From Armatimonadota bacterium (GTDB lineage Bacteria > Armatimonadota > DTGP01 > JAKQQT01): 64,000 nucleotides of DNA. Below the pieces are notes generated by a model that was not told the DNA's origin, did not search any database, and saw only the letters and a list, made by a program, of their open reading frames with translations. A program made the translations under genes and the position numbers. Position 1 is the stretch's first letter. The number at the start of each line of letters is the position of its first letter. Positions 10,114 to 22,524 of the stretch are shown piece after piece. The stretch lies in NCBI GenBank assembly GCA_036504095.1, contig DASXVS010000080.1:186001-250000 (forward strand), in the 5' to 3' direction.

Positions 10114-12105
10114 TTATTCATACTTCGGCAGAATCACCGGAAACGCCGGCGGCACATCGTCCTTCGGGAATTTCATTCGCGGCCCCGCCTTCGTGTAGTC
10201 CCACGGCTTGAATCCGATTTTCAGCGCCGGTGAGCCGGGCTTCAGGTGGAAGTCACCGTGCTCCGGGTCCACGAACCCCGGATCGGCAACGACGCTGTGC
10301 AGTTCCTTCCCCTTGTCCTTCTGCCATTCGTTGAGAGGATGGCTCAGGAATCGGACCGAGTCCTTCGGGTTCCAGTACAGGTTGTAGTCCATCGTGAAGT
10401 TGGCATCGCCCCAGTTGCTGCCCAGCAGCACGCCCTGCCGGTAGTAGACGACGTTGCGCTCGAACGTGAAAGACAGATGCGGCTCCATGCGCGTGCGCTG
10501 GATCTGGCTCTCGCGCGACAGCGCGAAGATGTTGTTCCGCAGGATGTTGTTCTCGCCGTAGTGCTGGTGAAAGCCGCCGGTCTTTGTGTGATAAACGAGG
10601 TTGTTTTCGGCCAGCATGCCGGTTGTGCCCTCGTCAAAGTAGATCCCCCAACCGCCGTAGGTGTCGGAGTCGCAATCGTGAATGATGTTGCCGCGCAGGA
10701 CCGAGCCTGGCGAAAGCCCCAGCGTGTAGATGCCGCCCAGGTCGCTTAGGACAGCCTGCCCGATGTTGGCGATAACGTTGTCCTCGATGCGGTTGTGATG
10801 GCTGCCGGACGCGGCATAGCCCCAGACCCAGCCAACCGAGACGCCGGTGTAGTAGAAGTCCTCGATGCTGTTGTGGCTGATGAGGTTGTTAGCCGACTGG
10901 CCGATCCATACTCCGATGGCGGCCGGGTGGATGCGTCCTCCGTGCGCGATGCGGCAATCCTGCACGGTGATGCGCTCCGTGCGGTCGGGCGATGTATCGC
11001 CGACCTTAATGCCTCCCGCGCCGAGATCGGTCAGATGGCACCGGCGCATCGCGCAGTCCGTTGAGCCGCCCTTCCATTCAACGGCATACTCGCCGGTGTG
11101 AGTTATAGTACAGGAATCCAGCGCGCAGTTGCGGGCGTTGCTGGCCGTGATCGCCGCTCCGAGGTCGATCTCCGCCTGCGGGAAGCTGCGCCCTGCTGGC
11201 GGCGTGATGTAGCCTGTGTGGGCGAAAGTAATCCCCCGGAACGTCACATCGTGCGCACCTTTGATCTCCATGAGTTGGCTCAGCACCGGCGCCACTATGT
11301 CGGCGGTTTCGATCTTCTCTCCCGGCATCGGAATATAGGTGACGACGCCGGTCGAGGGCTCGCGGTACCACTCGCCGGGCTCGGAGAGCGCTTCCTTCAC
11401 GTTCTCGATGAGGAATCGATCGCCTGCCCCAAGCGCAGCCATCGTCGGGTGCCACGTTGCGCCAGTGAACGTGACCGTGTTGGCAGCGTCATCGACCGCC
11501 GCCACCCGTAGCCGTTGCATCGTCCACTGGTGGAAGCAGAGCGCCTGGACGTCGCTCAGGTTTGCCCAATCCGGGCGAAACTCGCCGGGCTGGAAGCGGA
11601 AGCGGTCCGGCTTGTCGCCTTTGGATGGAGCGAGATAGCCCGCGATACGGTAGTAGCCGTTCTTCGGCAGGCGCGGCCGGTACCGGCGATGCCCATTCAC
11701 GAAGAGCTGCTCGAAGGCCGGCGTTCCGGCAGCGAACCGCAGTTCCCAGCGTCCGTTGGGCAGGAGCCTGCGGTCCGTTGGCTGTATTCCACCGCTGATG
11801 ACAGGCGTCTCACGCCGGTAAGCCGCCCACGTGACGCCGGAATCCGCCGGGATAAGGACCAGCGGTTGGGGAAGCCTGTACATACCGCCCCGGAACAGGA
11901 TACTGGTACCCGGCTTGTTCCGCGCCGCCATCTGCGCCTTCACTGGTGTGGCAAACGGACCATCCGTGTGTTTGACGTTTGGAGCGGGCAGCCGACCGGA
12001 CCATGCGTCGTTTCCCTTTGGCGAAACGTAGAGCGTGGCAGCAAGCGCATTGAGGCTCGCGCCAGCGAGGCCGAGTGAGAGGCAGAGTCTACTGAGAGTG
12101 CCCAT
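10114..12105 (-). CDS. Secreted right-handed parallel beta-helix protein
   Basis: About 663 residues. It has a signal peptide (MGTLSRLCLSLGLAGASLNALA) and then ATLYVSPKGNDAWSG, the usual opening of secreted beta-helix and polysaccharide-lyase-like proteins. Residues 250-600 contain many short N/G-rich rungs such as NLISHNSIEDF, NRIEDNVIANIG, SVLRGNIIHDCD and ENNLVYH, the ladder of a pectin-lyase-like fold. Likely a periplasmic or extracellular carbohydrate-active or binding protein; the catalytic residues are not clear. The start is 50 codons inside a longer open frame and is supported by GGAGGA eight bases upstream. Confidence 0.82.
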   Translation of the reverse strand: MGTLSRLCLSLGLAGASLNALAATLYVSPKGNDAWSGRLPAPNVKHTDGPFATPVKAQMAARNKPGTSILFRGGMYRLPQPLVLIPADSGVTWAAYRRETPVISGGIQPTDRRLLPNGRWELRFAAGTPAFEQLFVNGHRRYRPRLPKNGYYRIAGYLAPSKGDKPDRFRFQPGEFRPDWANLSDVQALCFHQWTMQRLRVAAVDDAANTVTFTGATWHPTMAALGAGDRFLIENVKEALSEPGEWYREPSTGVVTYIPMPGEKIETADIVAPVLSQLMEIKGAHDVTFRGITFAHTGYITPPAGRSFPQAEIDLGAAITASNARNCALDSCTITHTGEYAVEWKGGSTDCAMRRCHLTDLGAGGIKVGDTSPDRTERITVQDCRIAHGGRIHPAAIGVWIGQSANNLISHNSIEDFYYTGVSVGWVWGYAASGSHHNRIEDNVIANIGQAVLSDLGGIYTLGLSPGSVLRGNIIHDCDSDTYGGWGIYFDEGTTGMLAENNLVYHTKTGGFHQHYGENNILRNNIFALSRESQIQRTRMEPHLSFTFERNVVYYRQGVLLGSNWGDANFTMDYNLYWNPKDSVRFLSHPLNEWQKDKGKELHSVVADPGFVDPEHGDFHLKPGSPALKIGFKPWDYTKAGPRMKFPKDDVPPAFPVILPKYE

Positions 12106-12150
12106 AAGCCATTCCTCCGATATTCCGTGACAGCACGCTATCATTGCGAT

Positions 12151-13272
12151 ATGAACCGCCGCTGTTTCGCTTTCATCTTGGCGATAACCGTTGCCACCGC
12201 GTCCAGCGCCCGCGCCGACGCCGGAACGCCGCTGATGTGGGTAGGCTTCGGTCAACTGGTCATCCTCAATTGGCTGATCGCCTTGATCGAAGCCCTGGTG
12301 ATCTGGAGGGTGTTTCGCGTCAGGTATCTACAGTGCGCCTGCTGGCTCATCGCTGCGAACTACGCCTCGTTCTTTGCCGGAATCGGCTTGCTGTCAGTGG
12401 TTTCCTCCGCCGGGAAGCACGCCTCCGGCGAGTCTATCTTGCGTCACGGCCTGATGCTGCTACTGGTCGCCATCGGTATCTCCTTTCTGGCAACCATCGT
12501 TCTGGAATGGCCCTTCTGCCGCGTCCTGGCTCGCGGGACCGCCCATCCGTGGCGAAAAGCGTTTCGGATGTCTCTTCTGGCGCAAACGGTGTCCTACGCT
12601 CTCCTGGTCCCGTTGTACATTTCCGCCTCCCCCATCACATTCCTGACGAAGGCGCGGTTGAGCCCTGCCATCACTTTCGCTTCGCTCCCGGTTGCCACGG
12701 CCTACTACGTCGGCAAGGGCGACGCGGTGTGGCAAGTCAACTTGGACGGTACTGGCCTCCGTTACGCCGGCATTGGCGCCGTGAAGGCGGACGAAGATAT
12801 ATGGATCAGGCCAGGCAAGGATGGCATAGGCGACCTGTGTGCGATGAGCGGTGGAAGCGCCTATCCGTTCATACACGCGGCCCGTAGTCTTTCCGAACGG
12901 ATCGCGCCCGTGGGGACATACGCCAAACGCACCAGCCGTTCTGTGAAGCGCGGGCAACCCCTTACCTTCGAAGATTGGGAATTCGTGTATCCCGCCGACC
13001 TGCGCGCCCCCGGCGATACCGACTGGTATATTGAAACAGATGTTTTCGCCGGACGCGGCATCACAGTGAACAAGAAGGGCGAGGAGTACAACCTCGCCCT
13101 GGAAACGCCTTACCTGGCCTGGACACCCCGGTTCGCGACACTGCTCCCTGGCGATATGGCCGTGTTCCAGCTTGGTCCTAACATCATGCTGCTGCACATG
13201 CCGACCAAGCGCATCGCCATCCTCGCCGAGGGACGCAGTCCGGTCGTCGTCCTCAAACAACCGGTCAGGTAG
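12151..13272 (+). CDS. Membrane protein with C-terminal extracytoplasmic-type domain, function unknown
   Basis: About 373 residues. A signal-like segment (RRCFAFILAITVATASSARA) is followed by four or five membrane segments to about residue 170 (for example QLVILNWLIALIEALVIW and MLLLVAIGISFLATIVLEW). Residues 185-370 form a soluble beta-rich domain with a PVATAYYVGKGDAVWQVNLDGTG stretch like a propeller or DPP-IV-type blade. I do not recognise the family. It is divergent from the beta-helix gene with only 45 bases between, so the two may share a control region. Confidence 0.6.
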   Translation: MNRRCFAFILAITVATASSARADAGTPLMWVGFGQLVILNWLIALIEALVIWRVFRVRYLQCACWLIAANYASFFAGIGLLSVVSSAGKHASGESILRHGLMLLLVAIGISFLATIVLEWPFCRVLARGTAHPWRKAFRMSLLAQTVSYALLVPLYISASPITFLTKARLSPAITFASLPVATAYYVGKGDAVWQVNLDGTGLRYAGIGAVKADEDIWIRPGKDGIGDLCAMSGGSAYPFIHAARSLSERIAPVGTYAKRTSRSVKRGQPLTFEDWEFVYPADLRAPGDTDWYIETDVFAGRGITVNKKGEEYNLALETPYLAWTPRFATLLPGDMAVFQLGPNIMLLHMPTKRIAILAEGRSPVVVLKQPVR

Positions 13273-13472: not shown

Positions 13473-13494
13473 CCTCCATGAGGAATATTGTTCC
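13472..13494 (+). promoter_or_regulatory. Two overlapping palindromes at the transcription start, probable operator
   Basis: TCCTC-CAT-GAGGA (13472-13484) and GGAA-TATTG-TTCC (13482-13494) are perfect inverted repeats sharing three bases. They cover the -10 edge and the predicted start of transcription. IclR-family regulators commonly bind such short GGAA/TTCC palindromes at their own promoters, so autoregulation is likely. Binding is inferred, not shown. Confidence 0.6.
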
Positions 13495-13499
13495 GTATT

Positions 13500-14270
13500 A
13501 TGGAAAATCAATCATCCGTCAAATCCGTGGTGAAGGCGATGGCCCTGCTGGACCGAATCGCCCTGGATGACGTCTCGCACAAGGGCGTCACTCTGGCGTC
13601 ACTGGCCCAGGAGCTGGGTCTGCCCCAGAACACGGCGCACAACCTCCTCAAATCCCTCGTTGCCAGCGGATATGTTGCGCAGCAGGGACGGGGCATCTAC
13701 GTTGCCGGCCCGAAATGCGCACAGATCGGCCGGGTGACCCAGTGCGCGGATCCCCGCACATACCAGCGGGTGATGGCTTCGCTCCACAAGTTCGTCGATG
13801 CGGAGGGAGAGGCGTGCGTCTGCTCTACGCTCATCAACGGTGAGCGGGTGACCGTTGCCGTTGTTGACAGCACGCACACCGTCAGTGTTTCGCACGCGCT
13901 CGTCGATGGTGAGCCGTTCTGGGCAAAAAGCACCGGCCGAATGCTGGCAGCCTCCGCGGGAGAAGCGGAGCTTCAGCAAGTGATCGCGCGGCAAGGCATG
14001 CCAGGCCGGCATTGGAACGACATCGGCGATGAAGCAGGCCTCCGCGCGGCCCTGTCGGAAACACGGTCGCAAGGGTTCAGCCTTCTGCACGATGAGCGGG
14101 CGGAACTGGTGGCGATCGCCTGCCCCATCACCGACGGTGCCAACCCGGTCTGGGGCACACTGGCCACCTTTGCACCCGCCTACAGATGCCCCGAAAAGCG
14201 GCGCCGACAGTTGCTTGAACGCCTTCGCGCCGTTGCCGGAGACCTGTGCGAGGAGATCGCACAAGCCTGA
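13500..14270 (+). CDS. IclR-family transcriptional regulator
   Basis: A 256-residue regulator with the IclR plan. The N-terminal winged helix begins SVKSVVKAMALLDRI, with a recognition region TLASLAQELGLPQNTAHNLLKSLVASGYV. The C-terminal effector domain (about residues 90-250) contains GEACVCSTLINGERV, PFWAKSTGRMLAA, the G-x-S-x-L-x-DER segment (GFSLLHDERAEL) and AIACPI. The ATG at 13500 is preferred to a TTG four codons upstream; the leader is very short either way. The next gene starts 22 bases after the stop, so it is probably the regulator of its own operon. Confidence 0.9.
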   Translation: MENQSSVKSVVKAMALLDRIALDDVSHKGVTLASLAQELGLPQNTAHNLLKSLVASGYVAQQGRGIYVAGPKCAQIGRVTQCADPRTYQRVMASLHKFVDAEGEACVCSTLINGERVTVAVVDSTHTVSVSHALVDGEPFWAKSTGRMLAASAGEAELQQVIARQGMPGRHWNDIGDEAGLRAALSETRSQGFSLLHDERAELVAIACPITDGANPVWGTLATFAPAYRCPEKRRRQLLERLRAVAGDLCEEIAQA

Positions 14271-14292: not shown

Positions 14293-16584
14293 ATGTCACT
14301 CAAAGAACGTATTAAGGACGCAGCGTACAGGCTTGGCGCCGATCTCGTCGGTTTCGGCGGCATCGATCGCTGCGCCCAGGCCCCACTGATGATGAGCCCG
14401 CAGGGGCTCTACCCAGATGCCCGGACGGTCATCGTGATGGCTATCCACCACCCGGACGCATGCATCGAGTTGGGAGGCGTTGAGCACCCCCAGAAGATCG
14501 GGCCCTACTCCATCCAGTACCTGATGAACTCCCGCCTCGACGAAATGGCGTACCGCCTGGCTACATTCATCGAGCGCCAGGGATACGGCGCGATGCCGAT
14601 CGCGTCCAGCAATATCTGGCGGTACAACTCCTACAAGGAACTGGATGCGGTGTTCGCTCCGGACGTGAGCCATATCTACATGGCGGTCGTTGCCGGCCTT
14701 GCCGACATGGGATTCAACGGCCTTGCGCTGACGCCGGAGTACGGTGCGCGCAACCGCTTCATCACCGTGATTACGAACGCGGCCATCGAGCCCGATCCGC
14801 TGATTCCGCCGGGTACGATCTGCGATAAGTGCATGCTCTGCCGCAAGCACTGCCCGTCAAAGGCATTGTCCACGGAAATCGACGGCGAAAAGGTGCTGCG
14901 CATATCCGACTACGAGTATCGCTTCCCGAACAAGAACCTATGGCGCTGCGCCTGGGGTGAGCATTTCGACCTCGACCTCGATCTGGAGATACCGGAAAAG
15001 GTGAACGAGCAGGTCATCCTCAAGATGGTGAAGCAGCACGGAGTGCGCGCGGGAGAGATGGGGCAATGCCTGAAGTTCTGCGTGCCCAAGCCCAACCGGA
15101 GTTTCGATCTCAATTACTCGAAAACCCCGATGCGCAAGCACTGGGTGTCCACAGACGAGACCCGTGTCTCGCGCGGAGTCGTGGACCGTCTGTTTGCCAG
15201 AGTTTGCGCGGAAGGCGCCGAACAACTCATCGTCACCAGCGCGGATGACCTGCGCGCGATGGGCGTGGATCCCGAGTCGGTGCTGCCGGGTACGAAGAGC
15301 GCGTTGACATTGGTGCTCTCCCTGCCACAGGAAGCGGACACCGAGGCCGCACGGTTTGGGGCACAATACCAGATCGACTCTCTGAGTTATGACCTCGCCC
15401 GCAATATCGAGACTCTCGGTTTCCGCTCCATCGTCAGCGTCGAACACATCACCCAGCCTGATGCGGTCACCACGGCTTCTGCGACCAAAGCGGTTGTGTC
15501 CGCTCAGGCGGATCTGAACGGGCGCCTGGTTCTGGCCAACACTGTGTTGACGCGCATGGCCATTCAGCCGCAACGGCGCGGACCCTCGGGCGATACGGTC
15601 AAGCCTGACTGGGGTGACGCCACTTCGGATCTGGCTAGCCAACTGTCAGAACTCGCACGGGCGTGCGGTGCTGACCTGATGGGTATCGCGTCGGCAGCGC
15701 GCATGGACGCCATTGTTGACCAACTCAGGCCCGCCTTCGATGGCGAGGAGATCCTGGACGCGGCGGACCGTTCCATCCGGTTCACTCCGTGGGAGCCGGA
15801 AATCACCGCGCGACGACGCACCTTTCAAACGCCGGAAGATCACCTGCCCGGAGCCCAGTCCGTCTTTGTTTTCGGCCTTCGCATGCACGAGGAAGTCCTG
15901 CGCTGGGCAACCAAACCTCCCGCGGAGGCGGCCGGCCCGTATTCGTTCGAAACCTACGTGACCAACTACGTCGGATGGCCGATCGCTGTTCGAATCATCA
16001 AGCAGTTGGAGGCGTGGGGGTACCGTGCGCGCCTTGTGACGGACGTTACAGGTTCGGATTCCGTGACCGCCAACCCCCGCGGACCGCAGCCGGATCTGTT
16101 CACAAACCGGTTCGCGGGAGTGGCGGCCGGACTGGGATACCTGGCCACTAGCGGTCACCTGGCAACGCCCCAGTTCGGCATCCGCCAGAGGGTGTTCGCC
16201 ATCGTGACCGATGCGCCACTATGGCCGTCCGACCTGTATCAGCCGGATTCCGCGGAGGATCGCTGCGTCACGTGTGGCGCCCGGTGTATCGCCGCTTGCC
16301 CATCGCATGCCTTCACAGGCAGACGGGTAGAGTTCACGCTCGAGGGGCGCACGTACGGGTTTCAGCACATCGACGCAAAGAGGTGCGACTGGGTGAAAAG
16401 GTATGCCCTGATGGGCGAAAGCGGCTTCCAGTATCTGGGTTCTCCGGCCGACGTCTTCCCGGACGAGAACGTCGCCGCCTCGGAACTGGACCACGCGCTG
16501 CGGCAACACGATCCCATCAAGAAATACCGACCGGTTGTGGTGGAGCCGTGCGTGATCCGGTGTCCGCTCGCCTACGCGGACTAA
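14293..16584 (+). CDS. Large iron-sulfur protein made of repeated QueG/RdhA-like modules
   Basis: A 763-residue protein with GAGGAA before the start. Module 1 (about 1-270) has an N-terminal QueG/reductive-dehalogenase-like fold (YPDARTVIVMAIHHP), then LADMGFNGLALTPEYGARNR and a ferredoxin-type site with Cys 177, 180, 183 and 187, followed by Cys 219, 259 and 263. Residues about 290-425 repeat only the N-terminal part (LPGTKSALTLVLSLP) without cysteines. Module 2 (about 445-763) repeats everything: LPGAQSVFVFGL, LGYLATSGHLATPQFGIRQR, Cys 658, 661, 665 and 669, then 698, 753 and 757. QueG and RdhA use cobalamin and two 4Fe-4S clusters; whether cobalamin is bound here cannot be told. Probably a cytoplasmic reductase, since no Tat signal is present. 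Confidence 0.72.
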   Translation: MSLKERIKDAAYRLGADLVGFGGIDRCAQAPLMMSPQGLYPDARTVIVMAIHHPDACIELGGVEHPQKIGPYSIQYLMNSRLDEMAYRLATFIERQGYGAMPIASSNIWRYNSYKELDAVFAPDVSHIYMAVVAGLADMGFNGLALTPEYGARNRFITVITNAAIEPDPLIPPGTICDKCMLCRKHCPSKALSTEIDGEKVLRISDYEYRFPNKNLWRCAWGEHFDLDLDLEIPEKVNEQVILKMVKQHGVRAGEMGQCLKFCVPKPNRSFDLNYSKTPMRKHWVSTDETRVSRGVVDRLFARVCAEGAEQLIVTSADDLRAMGVDPESVLPGTKSALTLVLSLPQEADTEAARFGAQYQIDSLSYDLARNIETLGFRSIVSVEHITQPDAVTTASATKAVVSAQADLNGRLVLANTVLTRMAIQPQRRGPSGDTVKPDWGDATSDLASQLSELARACGADLMGIASAARMDAIVDQLRPAFDGEEILDAADRSIRFTPWEPEITARRRTFQTPEDHLPGAQSVFVFGLRMHEEVLRWATKPPAEAAGPYSFETYVTNYVGWPIAVRIIKQLEAWGYRARLVTDVTGSDSVTANPRGPQPDLFTNRFAGVAAGLGYLATSGHLATPQFGIRQRVFAIVTDAPLWPSDLYQPDSAEDRCVTCGARCIAACPSHAFTGRRVEFTLEGRTYGFQHIDAKRCDWVKRYALMGESGFQYLGSPADVFPDENVAASELDHALRQHDPIKKYRPVVVEPCVIRCPLAYAD

Positions 16585-17093: not shown

Positions 17094-17957
17094 CTACGCG
17101 TTGGCCAGCGCTTCAGCGCCGCCGACGATTTCGGCGAGTTCCTTCGTGATGGCGGCCTGACGGACCCGGTTGTACTGGAGAGTGAGGTCGCTTATCATTT
17201 CCGCAGCGTTGTCGCTGGCGCTGGTCATGCTTGTCATGCGCGCGCCGTGCTCGCTGGCGACGGCCTCGGTCATGGCGCGGTAGACCTGCACGTCCACGTA
17301 GCGCGGGAGCAGGTGGCCAAGAAGCGTGGGGGCGTCCGGCTCGAAGATGAGGTCGTCGGCAACCGGGATGTTGGCGTCGTGAGCCGGCGCCTCGAAGGGC
17401 AGGACCTTCAGGACGGTCGGGCGCTGCGTGATAGCGCTCACGAACCGGCTGTATACGAGGTAAACCTCGTCCACATCACCGGCCTCGAATTCGGCCCTCA
17501 CACGGGCCGACAGCGCTCGCACTTCGCCCAGGTTCACTTCGGTGCCGGGCATCGAGGCTTCGTAGACCACGTCATATTTGCGGCGCCGCAGGAAACCGGC
17601 GCCCTTCTTCCCGATAACGTACAGGCGCGCCGGTACCGGCAGCGAGGACACAAGCACCGCCACCTCGCGCATGATGTTGGTGTTGTAGGACCCGGCCAGG
17701 CCCCGCTCAGCGCAGAGAACGATGACGGCGGCGGCCTTCGATTCGCGATCGGCCAGTAACGGGTGGTCGAGGCCCTTCAGGCTGGGCGCCAGTTGCTGGA
17801 TGGTCTTCTGCATCAGGTCGGCGTAAGGACGGGCGGCTTCCGCGCGCTCCTGTGCCCGACGCAAACGGGCCGCCGCGACGAGTTTCATCGCGGTGGTAAC
17901 CTGCTCGATCTTCTTTACAGTTGCTATGCGAGCACGAATCTCGCGAACCGTCGCCAT
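17094..17957 (-). CDS. atpG: ATP synthase F1 gamma subunit
   Basis: A 287-residue protein starting MATVREIRARIATVKKIEQVTTAMK, the standard gamma N-terminal coiled-coil helix, with AAARLRRAQ after it. The C-terminal helix has SASDNAAEMISDLTLQYNRVRQAAITKEL, the rotor contact region. It forms the central stalk that turns within the alpha/beta ring. It is separated from atpA by 87 bases filled by an inverted repeat, and it is not followed by atpD. Confidence 0.96.
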   Translation of the reverse strand: MATVREIRARIATVKKIEQVTTAMKLVAAARLRRAQERAEAARPYADLMQKTIQQLAPSLKGLDHPLLADRESKAAAVIVLCAERGLAGSYNTNIMREVAVLVSSLPVPARLYVIGKKGAGFLRRRKYDVVYEASMPGTEVNLGEVRALSARVRAEFEAGDVDEVYLVYSRFVSAITQRPTVLKVLPFEAPAHDANIPVADDLIFEPDAPTLLGHLLPRYVDVQVYRAMTEAVASEHGARMTSMTSASDNAAEMISDLTLQYNRVRQAAITKELAEIVGGAEALANA

Positions 17958-17972
17958 GGAGTTACCTTTATT

Positions 17973-18042
17973 TCACCACAAAGGCACAAATGCACAAAGC
18001 GTATTCCGGTCTTTGTGCCTTAGTGTCTTTGTGGTTTGTGTG
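17973..18042. repeat. Inverted repeat of the TTTGTG family between atpA and atpG
   Basis: ACCACAAAGGCACAAATGCA and its continuation are mirrored, with a few mismatches, by CTTTGTGCCTTAGTGTCTTT and its continuation around an 11-base centre. This gives a long hairpin with arms of about 25 bp inside the ATP synthase transcript. It is the most complete copy of the family in the window. Confidence 0.7.
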
Positions 18043-18044
18043 CT

Positions 18045-19583
18045 TTACGCTGCCGGTTTGAACTGCGAATTATACTCTTCGATTGCTTTGCGCAGTTTCG
18101 CTTCGGTGTCCTTGTCCAGATCCTTCGTTGACGCGATGGACTGCGGCACATCCGGGTAACGGCTGTGCACGAACGGATACAGCCCGACTTCCCACTGCCT
18201 GATATCGGCAACCTCGATGTGGTCCAGATAGCCGTTGGTGCCGGCGAACAGGACCATTACCTGGTCCTCCATCGCGATCGGGGTATACTGCGGCTGCTTC
18301 AGGATTTCCGTCAGGCGCTCGCCGCGGGCCAGCTGGGCCTGCGTTGCCTTGTCGAGGTCGCTGGCGAACTGTGAAAAGGCGGCGAGTTCACGGTACTGAG
18401 CCAGTTCCAGGCGCAGTTTGCCGGCGACCTTCTTCATGGCCTTCGTCTGGGCGTTTCCGCCGACGCGGCTCACGGACAGACCCGCGTTCATAGCCGGGCG
18501 GATGCCGCTGTAGAACAGGCTGCTCTCCAGGAAGATCTGGCCATCCGTAATGGAGATCACGTTGGTCGGGATGTAGGCGCTGATGTCGCCCGCCTGCGTC
18601 TCGATCAGCGGGAGCGCCGTGAGGCTTCCTTTGCCGAGGCCATCGTTCAACTTCGCGGCGCGCTCCAGCAACCGGCTGTGGAGGTAGAAGACGTCACCAG
18701 GATACGCCTCGCGGCCCGGCGGGCGGCGAAGGAGCAGCGAAATCTGGCGGTAGGCCACGGCCTGTTTGGAAAGGTCGTCGTAGATGACCAGCGCGTCCTG
18801 CCCGTTGTCCCGGAAGTATTCGCCCATGCTGGAACCGGCGAGCGGAGCGAGATACTGCAGCGACGCGGGGTCCGAGGCGCACGCGCTCACGACCGTTGTA
18901 TACTCCATCGCGCCGTGCTGCTTGAGGGCTTCCACCACCTGGACTACCGTGCTCTGCTTCTGGCCGATGGCCACATAGATGCACTTCATGTCCTGGCCCT
19001 TCTGGGCGATGATGGTGTCCACGGCGACGGCGGTCTTGCCGGTCTGGCGGTCGCCGATGATGAGCTCGCGCTGCCCGCGGCCGATCGGTGTGATGGCGTC
19101 GATGATCTTGATGCCGGTCTGGACCGGTTGCTTCACGGGCTGGCGCTGAACGACGCCGGGGGCGCGGGTTTCGATGTGGTAGCGATGGTCCGTGACGATG
19201 GGACCTTCGTTGTCAATCGGCTCGCCAAGCGCATTCACGACACGCCCAATCAGTGCGTCGCCAACGGGGACGTCCGCGATGCGCCCGGTGCGTCTGACCT
19301 GATCGCCTTCCTGGATGTGTATGTCTTCCCCGAGGATGATGACGCCGATGTTGTCCTCTTCGAGGTTAAGGACCATGCCGGTGATGCGGAGTTCCTCGCC
19401 GGTCTTCGTTTTCACCTCGAACTCGACGAGTTCGGACGCCATCACCTCCGCCAGACCGTAGACGCGAGCGATTCCGTCTCCCACCTGGAGGACGGTTCCC
19501 ACGCCCACTTCCTCGACGCTGGGTTGATAGGCGCCTAGTTCACGTTCCAGAATCGCCGTCACTTCATCGGGTCGTATTGCCAT
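18045..19583 (-). CDS. atpA: ATP synthase F1 alpha subunit
   Basis: A 512-residue protein of normal length. The nucleotide-binding loop is [13 protein letters not shown], the following strand has [10 protein letters not shown], and the family signature appears as [17 protein letters not shown], including the arginine finger. It forms the catalytic hexamer with beta, binds non-catalytic nucleotide, and works at the inner face of the cytoplasmic membrane. The beta gene is not next to it. It is separated from atpH by about 1.7 kb carrying a SIMPL protein and a transposase. Confidence 0.97.
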
Positions 19584-19642
19584 TGTTCCTACTGTCTCCT
19601 GCTGTTTGCGCCATAAACCACCCGTGAGGGCGCTGAATCTGC

Positions 19643-20401
19643 CTACTCAAATCTGTATTCCGCCGTCACGTTCGCGGTGACTACTACTTCGCCCGCGCTG
19701 ATGGGAGTCGACGGCCCCGAGACCTTGGCAGCCATGCGGTAGCTCATCGTCCCACCCACATCCTCTGCGCTGGGCACATTTGTGCCCTGCTCGCTCAGGT
19801 GATCCAGGCCCGTGATCTTCACACCCGCCGCTGCCGCCATCGTGTCCGCCATTGCGCGCGCATCCTTCACTGCGTCGGCCAGCGCCTGCTTCTCTTGCGG
19901 CGAGCCGTCCTTCAAGCCGAAAGTCGGCCCGTTGATATCATTCGCACCCGCCTTCACCACCGCGTCCAGGATCTCCCCCGCCTTCTCCAGAAGCCCGGTA
20001 CGCACGGACACGCTGTTGGCGACCTGGTAGACGAAGTGTCCCTTGTTGGACGGTCCGGAGTATTCGACCGGCTGGTTCTGATCGTTCAGCGGTTCCCACA
20101 CGCGGTTCACACTGAACCGCGAAGTCCGGATCTCCGCTTCCTTCACACCCGCGGATTTCAGAGCGTCGACGATGTCGGTCACCTTCTTCGCGGCGCGGCT
20201 CCTGGGTCCGGCGATCTCGGCGCCCCGCTCCTGAACGCCGATAGACATCAGAATGACATCCGGTTTCACGCGTACTTCGCCGCGCCCGGACGCCGAGATC
20301 AGGTGGCTGACGTTGCGCATCAGCGGTTCACTCTGCGCCCTCGCCACCACAGGGGCGAGGGCCAGCAGCGATGCCAATACGATCGATTTCACCGTTTTCA
20401 T
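19643..20401 (-). CDS. Exported SIMPL-domain (DUF541) protein
   Basis: A 252-residue protein. A signal peptide ([22 protein letters not shown]) is followed by [23 protein letters not shown], the hallmark opening of SIMPL/DUF541 proteins, and the domain runs to the end ([14 protein letters not shown]). Members are periplasmic or outer-membrane proteins; some are linked to oxidative stress and others to signalling-partner stabilisation. Its place between atpH and atpA is unusual and suggests insertion into the ATP synthase operon. Confidence 0.88.
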
Positions 20402-20435
20402 TGTCGTTTCCCCCCAGGTTGCGCCGACTTTGGCC

Positions 20436-20546
20436 CCATCGGCTGAAGCCGACGTCTGATGTACAAACCCGGCTGAATCCGGCTACCGTACGAATTCAGT
20501 CGGTTTCAACCGACTTCGTCGCCCATCCGTCGGATTCAACCGATGG
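20436..20546. repeat. REP cluster copy A
   Basis: A 111-bp unit made of four successive short hairpins built on the CGGYTGAARCCG theme: CGGCTGAAGCCG, CCGGCTGAATCCGG, AGTCGGTTTCAACCGACT and TCGGATTCAACCGA. It overlaps the 3' end of the transposase gene, whose stop codon lies inside the last hairpin. Copies B and C on the other side of the gene have the same order and orientation. Confidence 0.85.
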
Positions 20547-20976
20547 CACTTAATGGCTCCAGCGCGTCCTTCGTTGTACCATCGCGATGATGCTCTACCT
20601 GATTCGCTATGTATCCAGCGACCTTTGGGGCGTCCCATCTCGACACGCTGAATGCTGCATACCCGTCCTGCCATCGGAAGCCACGATCGTCCCCCGAATG
20701 GTTCACAAAGTGCGATGAAGCGCCTTTCGCCTGCCGCACCACATCCGCAACGGTTGTCGTGGTAGTCATTCGCACCAGCAAATGCACGTGATCTTCGATC
20801 CCGTTCAGTGCTACGACAGTCAGTCCCTGGCGCGCACAGCCACTACGGATGCACGCATACACATCTTCCCGAATATCCGGAGACAGGTAAGGGGCTCTCC
20901 CCATGGTCGACCACGTGAAGTGGATGAACACCTCAGTGTGATTCCCCGACAACCTGGAATCTCTTTCAGATGCCAT
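20536..20976 (-). mobile_element. REP-associated tyrosine transposase (RAYT, Y1/IS200-like)
   Basis: A 146-residue HUH nuclease. The metal-binding pair is in EDHVHLLVRM, and the nucleophilic Tyr is probably in PKVAGYIANQVEHHR near the C-terminus. The opening HTEVFIHFTWSTMGRAP is typical of the family. RAYTs are single-copy, domesticated relatives of IS200/IS605 transposases that cut REP hairpins. Here the gene is bracketed by REP clusters in the same orientation: copy A at its 3' end, B and C upstream. No second transposase or TnpB is present. Confidence 0.88.
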
Positions 20977-21010
20977 TCTCCAGCCTCCGTCAATCCCAGA
21001 TCTTTGCGCC

Positions 21011-21121
21011 CCATCGGCTGAAGCCGACGGCTGACGAACAAACCCGGCTGAAGCCGGCTACCGTACGAATTCAGTCGGTTTCAACCGACTTCGTCGCCCA
21101 TCCGTCGGATTCATCCGATGG
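21011..21121. repeat. REP cluster copy B
   Basis: A 111-bp unit with the same four hairpins as copy A; most differences keep pairing (for example ATTCATCC for ATTCAACC). Confidence 0.85.
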
Positions 21122-21134
21122 CCCAGGTTTCGTA

Positions 21135-21243
21135 ATCGGCTGAAGCCGAAGACTGACGTACAAACCCGGCTGAAGCCAGCTACCGTACGAATTCAGTCGG
21201 TTTAAACCGACTTTGTCGCCCAGCCGTCGGATTCATCCGATGG
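21135..21243. repeat. REP cluster copy C
   Basis: A 109-bp unit directly after copy B and only 26 bases from the atpH stop. It is slightly more diverged: the first hairpin is broken (CGGCTGAAGCCGAAG continues without its outer pairs) and the third reads TCGGTTTAAACCGA. Confidence 0.85.
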
Positions 21244-21269
21244 CCAAGGCGAGAATCCAATAGTGTCTT

Positions 21270-21836
21270 CTAACTTCCAACTACCGGCATCGTGGCCTTC
21301 ATGAGGCGCGCGCCGATCTGCTCCAGGTAACCCTTCACGCTGCCGTCCATCACGGTGTCGCCGATGCGGACGATCACGCCGCCAACCAGTGACGGGTCGG
21401 TGGTCAACGTCAGCCGCGTCTCCCTGCCTGTTAGCGCGTCGAGACGGGCTTTCAGCCGGGCAGTCTGGCCTTCGTCCATCGGCGATGCGGACCGCACTTC
21501 GGCATTCACCGCGCCTCTGGCCTCGTCCGCCAGCTGCGCGAACGCCTGGGCCGTCTCCGGCAGTGATGCCTCGCGACTGTGATCCAGGACCATATCCAGG
21601 AATCGTCGCGTCACCGGTTGAACCATCTGCGAACCGACGATGGCCTGCAGCGCGGCCTTTTTCCGCTCGACCGGCACGCGCGGAACGGCCAGGGCCGCAA
21701 GGACCTGAGGGCTCTGGTCAAGGATGCCTGACATTACAGTCAGGTCCGCCGAAACCGCGTCAACGGTGTTTTCGCGCTGGGCGATGTGGAACAGCGCGTT
21801 AGCATAGCGGCGCGCCACGCTGGAAGGCGGTCTCAC
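21270..21836 (-). CDS. atpH: ATP synthase F1 delta subunit
   Basis: A 188-residue protein opening with SVARRYANALFHIA, the family start. The C-terminal part contains LTLTTDPSLVGGVIVRIGDTVMDGSVKGYLEQI, matching the signature of delta/OSCP. It ties the peripheral stalk to the top of F1. Its ATG overlaps the atpF stop by four bases. It is the last gene before the inserted REP/RAYT and SIMPL block. Confidence 0.95.
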   Translation of the reverse strand: MRPPSSVARRYANALFHIAQRENTVDAVSADLTVMSGILDQSPQVLAALAVPRVPVERKKAALQAIVGSQMVQPVTRRFLDMVLDHSREASLPETAQAFAQLADEARGAVNAEVRSASPMDEGQTARLKARLDALTGRETRLTLTTDPSLVGGVIVRIGDTVMDGSVKGYLEQIGARLMKATMPVVGS

Positions 21837-22447
21837 TGCGGCTGCCCCACTCCCTCGATGAACCGGTCAATCAACGTTCGCTGAGAGTCCACGGTGATAT
21901 TTTGCTCGATGATACGCCCCGCGAGTTCGACGGCCATCCGCGTGGAGGCCTCCCGTATCTGTGCCTGCGCCTTTTCCATTTCCTGGCGCACGCTTTCGTT
22001 GCCGGACGCGATCATGCGGTCGGCCTGCTGGCGCGCATTCGCCAGGATCTCATCCTTCATCGCGTTGGCCTGGACCAGCGCATCGGCGATCCGTTTCCGG
22101 CTCTCCTCATCCGCTGCAGCCAGGTGCGCTTCGTATTCTTTGCGCGCGGTCTCGGCCGCCGCCTTCGCCTGTTCGGCCACGGAATAGATATCGGCGACCT
22201 CGGTCTGGCGTTCGGCGATGATGCTAAGAACCGGACCCCACAGGACTTTCTTCAACACCCAGAGCAGAACGATGAACGCGAGGGCCTGGGCGATGACGGT
22301 ACGCGGGTCCAGCCCCAGCGATCCGAGCAGACCGCCGGGCTTGGCTTCCGAACCCGCGGCCTCCTCGGCGAATCCGGCAGAGCAGACGATAAGTCCGACC
22401 GCCGCCACGCTCAGCGTGCGATACGTGTTTTTCAGGAATCTCTTCAT
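21833..22447 (-). CDS. atpF: ATP synthase F0 b subunit with signal-like N-terminus
   Basis: About 204 residues. A membrane helix (VIAQALAFIVLLWVLKKVLWGPVLSII) is followed by a long charged coiled coil (ERQTEVADIYSVAEQAKAAAETARKEY onwards), the peripheral stalk. Before the helix there is an unusual 45-residue extension that looks like a cleavable signal peptide (RTLSVAAVGLIVCSAGFAEEA). The start is taken at MKRFLKN; an upstream ATG 12 codons earlier is less likely. Confidence 0.92.
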   Translation of the reverse strand: MKRFLKNTYRTLSVAAVGLIVCSAGFAEEAAGSEAKPGGLLGSLGLDPRTVIAQALAFIVLLWVLKKVLWGPVLSIIAERQTEVADIYSVAEQAKAAAETARKEYEAHLAAADEESRKRIADALVQANAMKDEILANARQQADRMIASGNESVRQEMEKAQAQIREASTRMAVELAGRIIEQNITVDSQRTLIDRFIEGVGQPQ

Positions 22448-22524
22448 AGGCTGGTGCGCCTCCCCCGGGCGAAGCGCCCGCAACGAGACGCCCCGCCGGG
22501 GCGGGACGTCTGCAGAGAGGGATC

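Follow-up and report, generated by a model that had tools for sequence, protein, structure and literature searches.

A family of tandem QueG/RdhA-type iron-sulfur proteins with two complete modules and a vestigial middle domain

Main finding

The 64,000-nucleotide stretch of Armatimonadota DNA analysed here (the window) encodes a 763-residue iron-sulfur protein in which two complete QueG/RdhA-type modules flank a third copy of their N-terminal domain. This anatomy arranges units of a known kind in a new way, and the protein family that carries it is widespread in bacteria but unnamed. To our knowledge, dehalogenation and epoxyqueuosine reduction are the only reactions of class III cobamide enzymes. 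The existence of a family that spans several phyla, has its own regulators and carries two modules on each chain suggests that class III chemistry reaches more widely into ordinary carbon metabolism.

The gene and its product

The gene is intact, occurs as a single copy in the 4.68 Mb host genome, and lies directly downstream of a regulator gene. The relevant features of the window are:

13488-14270, + strand: IclR-family regulator, 260 residues (PF09339, E 6.8e-11; PF01614, E 4.8e-13)
14293-16584, + strand: tandem QueG/RdhA-type iron-sulfur protein, 763 residues, intact open reading frame (ATG at 14293, stop at 16584)
14293-14808, + strand: module 1 N-terminal cobalamin-binding-type domain, residues 1-172 (QueG and RdhA profile probability about 98)
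14809-15147, + strand: module 1 ferredoxin part, residues 173-285 (C177, C180, C183, C187, C219 and C259xxxC263)
15148-15612, + strand: middle vestigial N-terminal domain, residues 286-440, without a cluster motif (profile match, shuffle control)
15613-16248, + strand: module 2 N-terminal cobalamin-binding-type domain, residues 441-652 (profile probability 98.8 for QueG, 99.1 for RdhA)
16249-16581, + strand: module 2 ferredoxin part, residues 653-763 (C658, C661, C665, C669, C698 and C753xxxC757)
Residues Y72, N107 or D124, and R155: candidate active-site residues of module 1 (sequence alignment)

No Pfam or NCBIfam model covers the protein above its cut-off. TIGR02486 RDH (E 3.1e-23; 83.1 bits, cut-off 160.35) and TIGR00276 QueG (E 2.5e-10; 39.9 bits, cut-off 200) are the first-matching NCBIfam families for all 40 aligned homologues, with RDH the best, and Pfam yields sub-threshold ferredoxin matches and a trace of QueG_DUF1730. 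Literature searches of partial coverage returned no description of the 2.5-module order. The earlier note on this DNA had allowed that the order might already be that of a named and characterised family; neither the models above cut-off nor the literature searched contains one. An artefactual or frameshift fusion is ruled out by the identical order across independent genomes, and an apparent natural split into two genes in genome G259 proved to be an assembly gap (NN). The chain begins MSLKERIKDAAYRLGADLVG and runs straight into the first helix of module 1, with no Tat-type signal of the PceA kind visible at this start.

Three related segments

The repeats were compared profile against profile with HH-suite, using slices of the 40-sequence alignment; the pairwise E-values of hhalign refer to a one-entry database and were left unused. 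Module 1 (residues 1-285) matches module 2 (441-763) with a probability of 100, a score of 326 and 25% identity. The middle segment (286-440) matches the N-terminal domain of module 1 (probability 98.6, score 91.7) and that of module 2 (97.9 and 82.7), with no match to either ferredoxin part. Since 30 column shuffles score at most 21.4 and reversed profiles about 13, far below the middle segment itself, the third copy is not a chance resemblance.

An AlphaFold model of the full protein, built with 40 sequences (pLDDT 89.9, pTM 0.93), has an identical order of helices and strands in all three segments. Searched against the PDB with Foldseek, it matches NpRdhA (E 2.3e-13), PceA (1e-10) and QueG (2.5e-8), followed weakly by MMACHC, a B12-processing protein. 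The whole-chain TM-score to any solved structure is low (0.26), as expected if single modules alone superpose. Modelled by itself, the middle segment (pLDDT 89.0, pTM 0.84) finds QueG and NpRdhA first (probability 1.00, TM 0.51-0.59, E 1.3e-3 and up) and FMN nitroreductases after them. By model, Foldseek and profiles, the protein has the build of class III cobamide/iron-sulfur reductases, in which a ferredoxin with two clusters follows a cobalamin-binding-type (nitroreductase-like) domain.

The layout read from the letters alone, two complete QueG/RdhA-type modules with a middle copy of the N-terminal domain, is upheld by these comparisons, as is the relation to QueG and RdhA, since each full module matches both profiles. 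Its borders move slightly, from 1-270, 290-425 and 445-763 to those used here. The middle copy had been described as free of cysteines, which is incorrect: C305 is present, though not conserved, and the segment is properly described as having no cluster motif. To call QueG and RdhA single-module enzymes was likewise an overstatement, as the cobalamin-binding domain is present a second time, in vestigial form, in NpRdhA and other catabolic RdhAs, where this duplicate mimics the interface of a dimer (PMC10463259).

NpRdhA (PDB 4RAS, 6ZXX), the top Foldseek match and likewise of cytosolic type, thus offers a counterpart to residues 286-440, combining its vestigial duplicate with a full two-cluster module. 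It has only one such module, however, and no equivalent of its Lys488 was identified in the tandem protein. The novelty over catabolic RdhAs is the second complete, ferredoxin-bearing module; the reductase fusion of some of their relatives is absent here. PceA (PDB 4UQU) is homologous to the modules across domain and ferredoxin, and its Arg305 aligns without gaps to Arg155, but PceA has one module per chain, forms a homodimer, and bears eight cluster cysteines and an N-terminal Tat-type signal, whereas the tandem protein has 2.5 modules per chain, no such signal and seven cysteines per module. QueG (PDB 5T8Y, 5D6S) shares the order of domain and ferredoxin and the CxxCxxCxxxC start; in contrast to QueG, the tandem protein lacks the DYH motif, the HEAT-repeat tail and an equivalent of C236, and ends at its second ferredoxin.

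Cluster cysteines

The cysteine pattern is as first described, with C177/180/183/187, C219 and C259xxxC263 in module 1 and C658/661/665/669, C698 and C753xxxC757 in module 2. All seven in module 1 are kept in 40 of 40 aligned homologues and in 21 of 21 members of an HMM-selected set; in module 2, six are kept in 40 of 40 and C661 in 39. In QueG, the distal cluster is held by C184, C187, C190 and C243, and the cluster beside cobalamin by C194, C210, C236 and C239 (PMC4646009). By alignment, C177, C180, C183 and C263 of module 1 are equivalent to the distal ligands, and C187, C219 and C259 to those on the cobalamin side.

The exception is the equivalent of C236, the other cluster cysteines being invariant or nearly so in both sequence sets. 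At this position (256) module 1 has M, F or A in all 40 homologues, so that its proximal cluster lacks one cysteine ligand in every member, unlike those of QueG and PceA. In module 2 the equivalent is absent from 35 of 40, a cysteine at 750 occurring only in L006, L009, L010, L012 and L017. Each module therefore has seven of the eight cysteines of the ligand set for two [4Fe-4S] clusters, a shortfall that concerns cluster type and not fold. C219 sits in a nearly invariant stretch, NLWRCAWGEHF, which could, as a guess, supply the missing ligand.

Conservation across the chain

Conservation falls from module 1 through module 2 to the middle segment. In homologue set A1, 40 aligned sequences fetched partly with module 1 peptides, mean pairwise identity is 61.5%, 40.5% and 23.9%, respectively. 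As a control for this bias, 20 full-length Armatimonadota members were selected by profile instead of by such peptides, and give 54.8%, 42.9% and 27.7%; the order stands, and the size of the gradient in the first set was inflated by selection. The most conserved stretch consists of pocket-type residues around 70-155.

This stretch holds the candidate active-site residues. R155 aligns without gaps to PceA R305 and is invariant (40/40 and 21/21). Asn107 and Asp124 are both candidates by alignment for the position of PceA Asn272 and QueG Asp130; D124 is kept in 40/40 and 21/21. Y72, a Tyr in 40/40 and 19/21, was placed by helix position alone, where the long helix begins, the place to which alignment assigns QueG Tyr101 and PceA Tyr246. 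The catalytic Tyr and Arg of reductive dehalogenases, to which Y72 and R155 are compared, are the Tyr246/Arg305 (Tyr426/Arg552) set. Module 2 is laxer: Y550 is Tyr in 33, Phe in 6 and Cys in 1 of 40 and some members have Phe, Cys or Trp at this position, R633 is Arg in 35/40 and elsewhere Lys, Cys, Val or Asn, and Asp584 is kept in 37/40. This difference favours module 1 as the catalytic one while leaving room for a working module 2. The gradient in sequence conservation supports the earlier suggestion of one catalytic and one accessory module.

Distribution and neighbourhood

In a collection with one genome per species, relatives were found on 56 contigs, nearly all of them full length and with the same module order, the full-chain homologues being 38-61% identical. 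A further survey of Armatimonadota found matches in 31 of 291 genomes, and the layout is fixed throughout these 56 loci and 31 genomes, bearing out the proposal that full-length homologues share the 2.5-module order. The host groups are Planctomycetota, Lentisphaerae, Kiritimatiellae, Spirochaetes, Clostridia/Oscillospiraceae, Brocadiaceae and Armatimonadota, mostly polysaccharide degraders of gut, sediment and digester. The window protein is most similar to copies from planctomycetes and clostridia (60-61%), and gene transfer between phyla is therefore likely on these sequence identities. A search of plasmids returned QueG and RdhA only, with no full-length family member.

The adjacent IclR regulator noted earlier was confirmed, its gene (13488-14270, + strand) ending 22 bp upstream of the enzyme gene. 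In about 20 loci, drawn from several phyla, a homologous IclR gene lies next to the enzyme gene in the same orientation, and AraC genes lie beside the enzyme gene in about 15 loci, often divergently. Over 20 loci the divergence of IclR correlates with that of the enzyme (Mantel r 0.67, p 0.0005), which indicates that the pair tends to travel together. Only regulators recur, with no conserved partner enzyme or subunit among the neighbours. These are otherwise mixed (glycoside hydrolases, sulfatases, sugar transporters and Gfo/Idh/MocA oxidoreductases), and sugar-type enzymes and regulators lie beside the fusion or its paralogues. This link to sugars is suggestive, such genes being common anyway in polysaccharide degraders.

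Two other parts of the window are of separate interest. At 10114-12255 (- strand) lies a gene for a 713-residue right-handed beta-helix protein (PF13229, E 1.4e-25, with a weak match to a GH141 insertion domain), homologues of which lie close to the fusion in L011 and L012. In the ATP synthase genes at 17094-22483 (- strand; atpF, atpH ... atpA, atpG), two other genes break the order between atpH and atpA, one for a SIMPL/DUF541 protein (19643-20401) and one for an IS200-like Y1 transposase (20536-20976).

Cobamide context of the hosts

No sequence motif marks cobalamin binding in class III enzymes (PMC4646009). The host genome has a separate QueG above cut-off and a cobalamin riboswitch, although none lies within the window. 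Among Armatimonadota such a riboswitch occurs in 30 of 31 carriers of the tandem gene and 216 of 260 non-carriers (Fisher p 0.03), a weak association that ignores genome size and ancestry and concerns an element too common to decide the matter. It was also found in 9 of 10 further carrier genomes, with none found in carrier G296. The host genome has three COX1 genes, so the enzyme encoded here may operate in a cell exposed to oxygen, by analogy with the oxygen-tolerant catabolic RdhAs.

Proposed function and alternatives

The reading given slightly better than even confidence is that of a cytosolic class III-type family in which module 1 is catalytic, module 2 is a relay, store or second site, and the middle copy is an interface. 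The fixed order, domain and ferredoxin, vestigial domain, domain and ferredoxin, would define a class III family of its own. Module 1 would bind a base-off cobamide beneath a pocket of Tyr72, Asn107 or Asp124, and Arg155, and reduce it via its own clusters. Module 2, which keeps its clusters and not a strict active site, would relay or store electrons or hold a second, relaxed site, and the middle copy would act as a dimer-like interface or scaffold, as does the vestigial domain in catabolic RdhA. The gene would be turned on with the substrate by a dedicated IclR or AraC sensor; this substrate is probably carbohydrate-derived or a related plant metabolite. The enzyme probably acts reductively on a small molecule, perhaps derived from a sugar, and takes from it a group bound through oxygen or something similar. 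The anatomy, homology, conservation gradient and recurrent regulator pairing are shown by the data above; cobamide binding, the division of labour, the reaction and the substrate we infer. The simplest explanation is a pseudo-dimer on a single chain, in which one module is strictly catalytic and the other relaxed. A bolder version is rated as rather unlikely: this would be the first described cobamide enzyme family with two complete class III modules per chain and a three-Cys cluster on the corrinoid side, either [3Fe-4S] or site-differentiated [4Fe-4S], with module 2 storing a second electron or running a second reaction. In that version the family would be part of a large group of undescribed class III reductases, regulated by sugars and not directed at halogens, in polysaccharide degraders of gut and sediment.

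It is unlikely, though far from fanciful, that both modules bind cobamide and catalyse, acting on two ends of a substrate or in successive steps. The RdhA profile probability is in fact higher for module 2 than for module 1 (99.1 and 97.9), its cluster cysteines are near-complete, and Tyr550, Asp584 and Arg633 are kept in most members; yet module 2 is the less conserved in both samples, and some members have replaced its Tyr (by Phe or Cys) and its Arg (by Lys, Cys, Val or Asn). Somewhat less credible is a protein without a corrinoid, whose modules would be multi-cluster electron-transfer or flavin proteins serving a separate enzyme. The fold is common to FMN nitroreductases, which the middle domain matches, a proximal cluster ligand is missing, and cobalamin binding has no sequence motif to point to. 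However, the neighbourhoods contain no conserved partner enzyme to be served, conservation peaks at the pocket-type residues around 70-155, and the nearest homologues of known cofactor are cobamide enzymes.

A genuine organohalide reductive dehalogenase, a tandem relative of the catabolic RdhAs, is distinctly improbable. RDH is the best named family in 40 of 40 homologues, the protein is cytosolic like catabolic RdhAs, and many paralogues per genome occur, as in organohalide-respiring bacteria; but the RDH score of 83 bits falls well below the cut-off of 160, and the hosts are mostly polysaccharide degraders whose regulators and neighbouring genes indicate sugars. Scarcely any probability attaches to a queuosine-pathway role as a substitute for QueG, despite the homology to TIGR00276 (E 2.5e-10). 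That role is rejected on account of the separate above-cut-off QueG and the missing DYH motif, to which the absence of C-terminal HEAT repeats and the score of 39.9 against 200 bits may be added.

Single-module relatives

Genomes that encode the fusion contain many undescribed pairs of single-module QueG/RdhA-like genes, and such genes adjoin the fusion in L009, L013, L018, L047, L055 and L061. The paired genes are separate, encode 277-382 residues, and in several cases also adjoin IclR or AraC genes. Some single-module relatives have a compensating cysteine, with CxxC at the equivalent of C219. In a tree of modules, module 1 and these single-module proteins form a group (support 0.926) outside which module 2 falls. 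Origin by fusion of an adjacent single-module pair is unsupported, because both members of such pairs belong to one clade beside module 1.

A cultured representative of the family is Oligosphaera ethanolica (L082-L093), which has about 25 QueG/RdhA-like matches, all under the QueG cut-off, and they form an expanded, undescribed enzyme set. Three are 2.5-module fusions, and many are adjacent single-module pairs beside IclR, AraC or GntR genes; L085:6495-8246, L089:5283-7436 and L093:6465-8604 are example loci. In L009 (5357-8226, - strand), an IclR gene is followed by three single-module genes in a row (277, 291 and 382 residues), which adjoin two tandem full-length fusions (774 and 780 residues). 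A single-module pair in L088 (3284-7751, - strand) adjoins the gene of a glycyl-radical (pyruvate formate lyase-like) enzyme.
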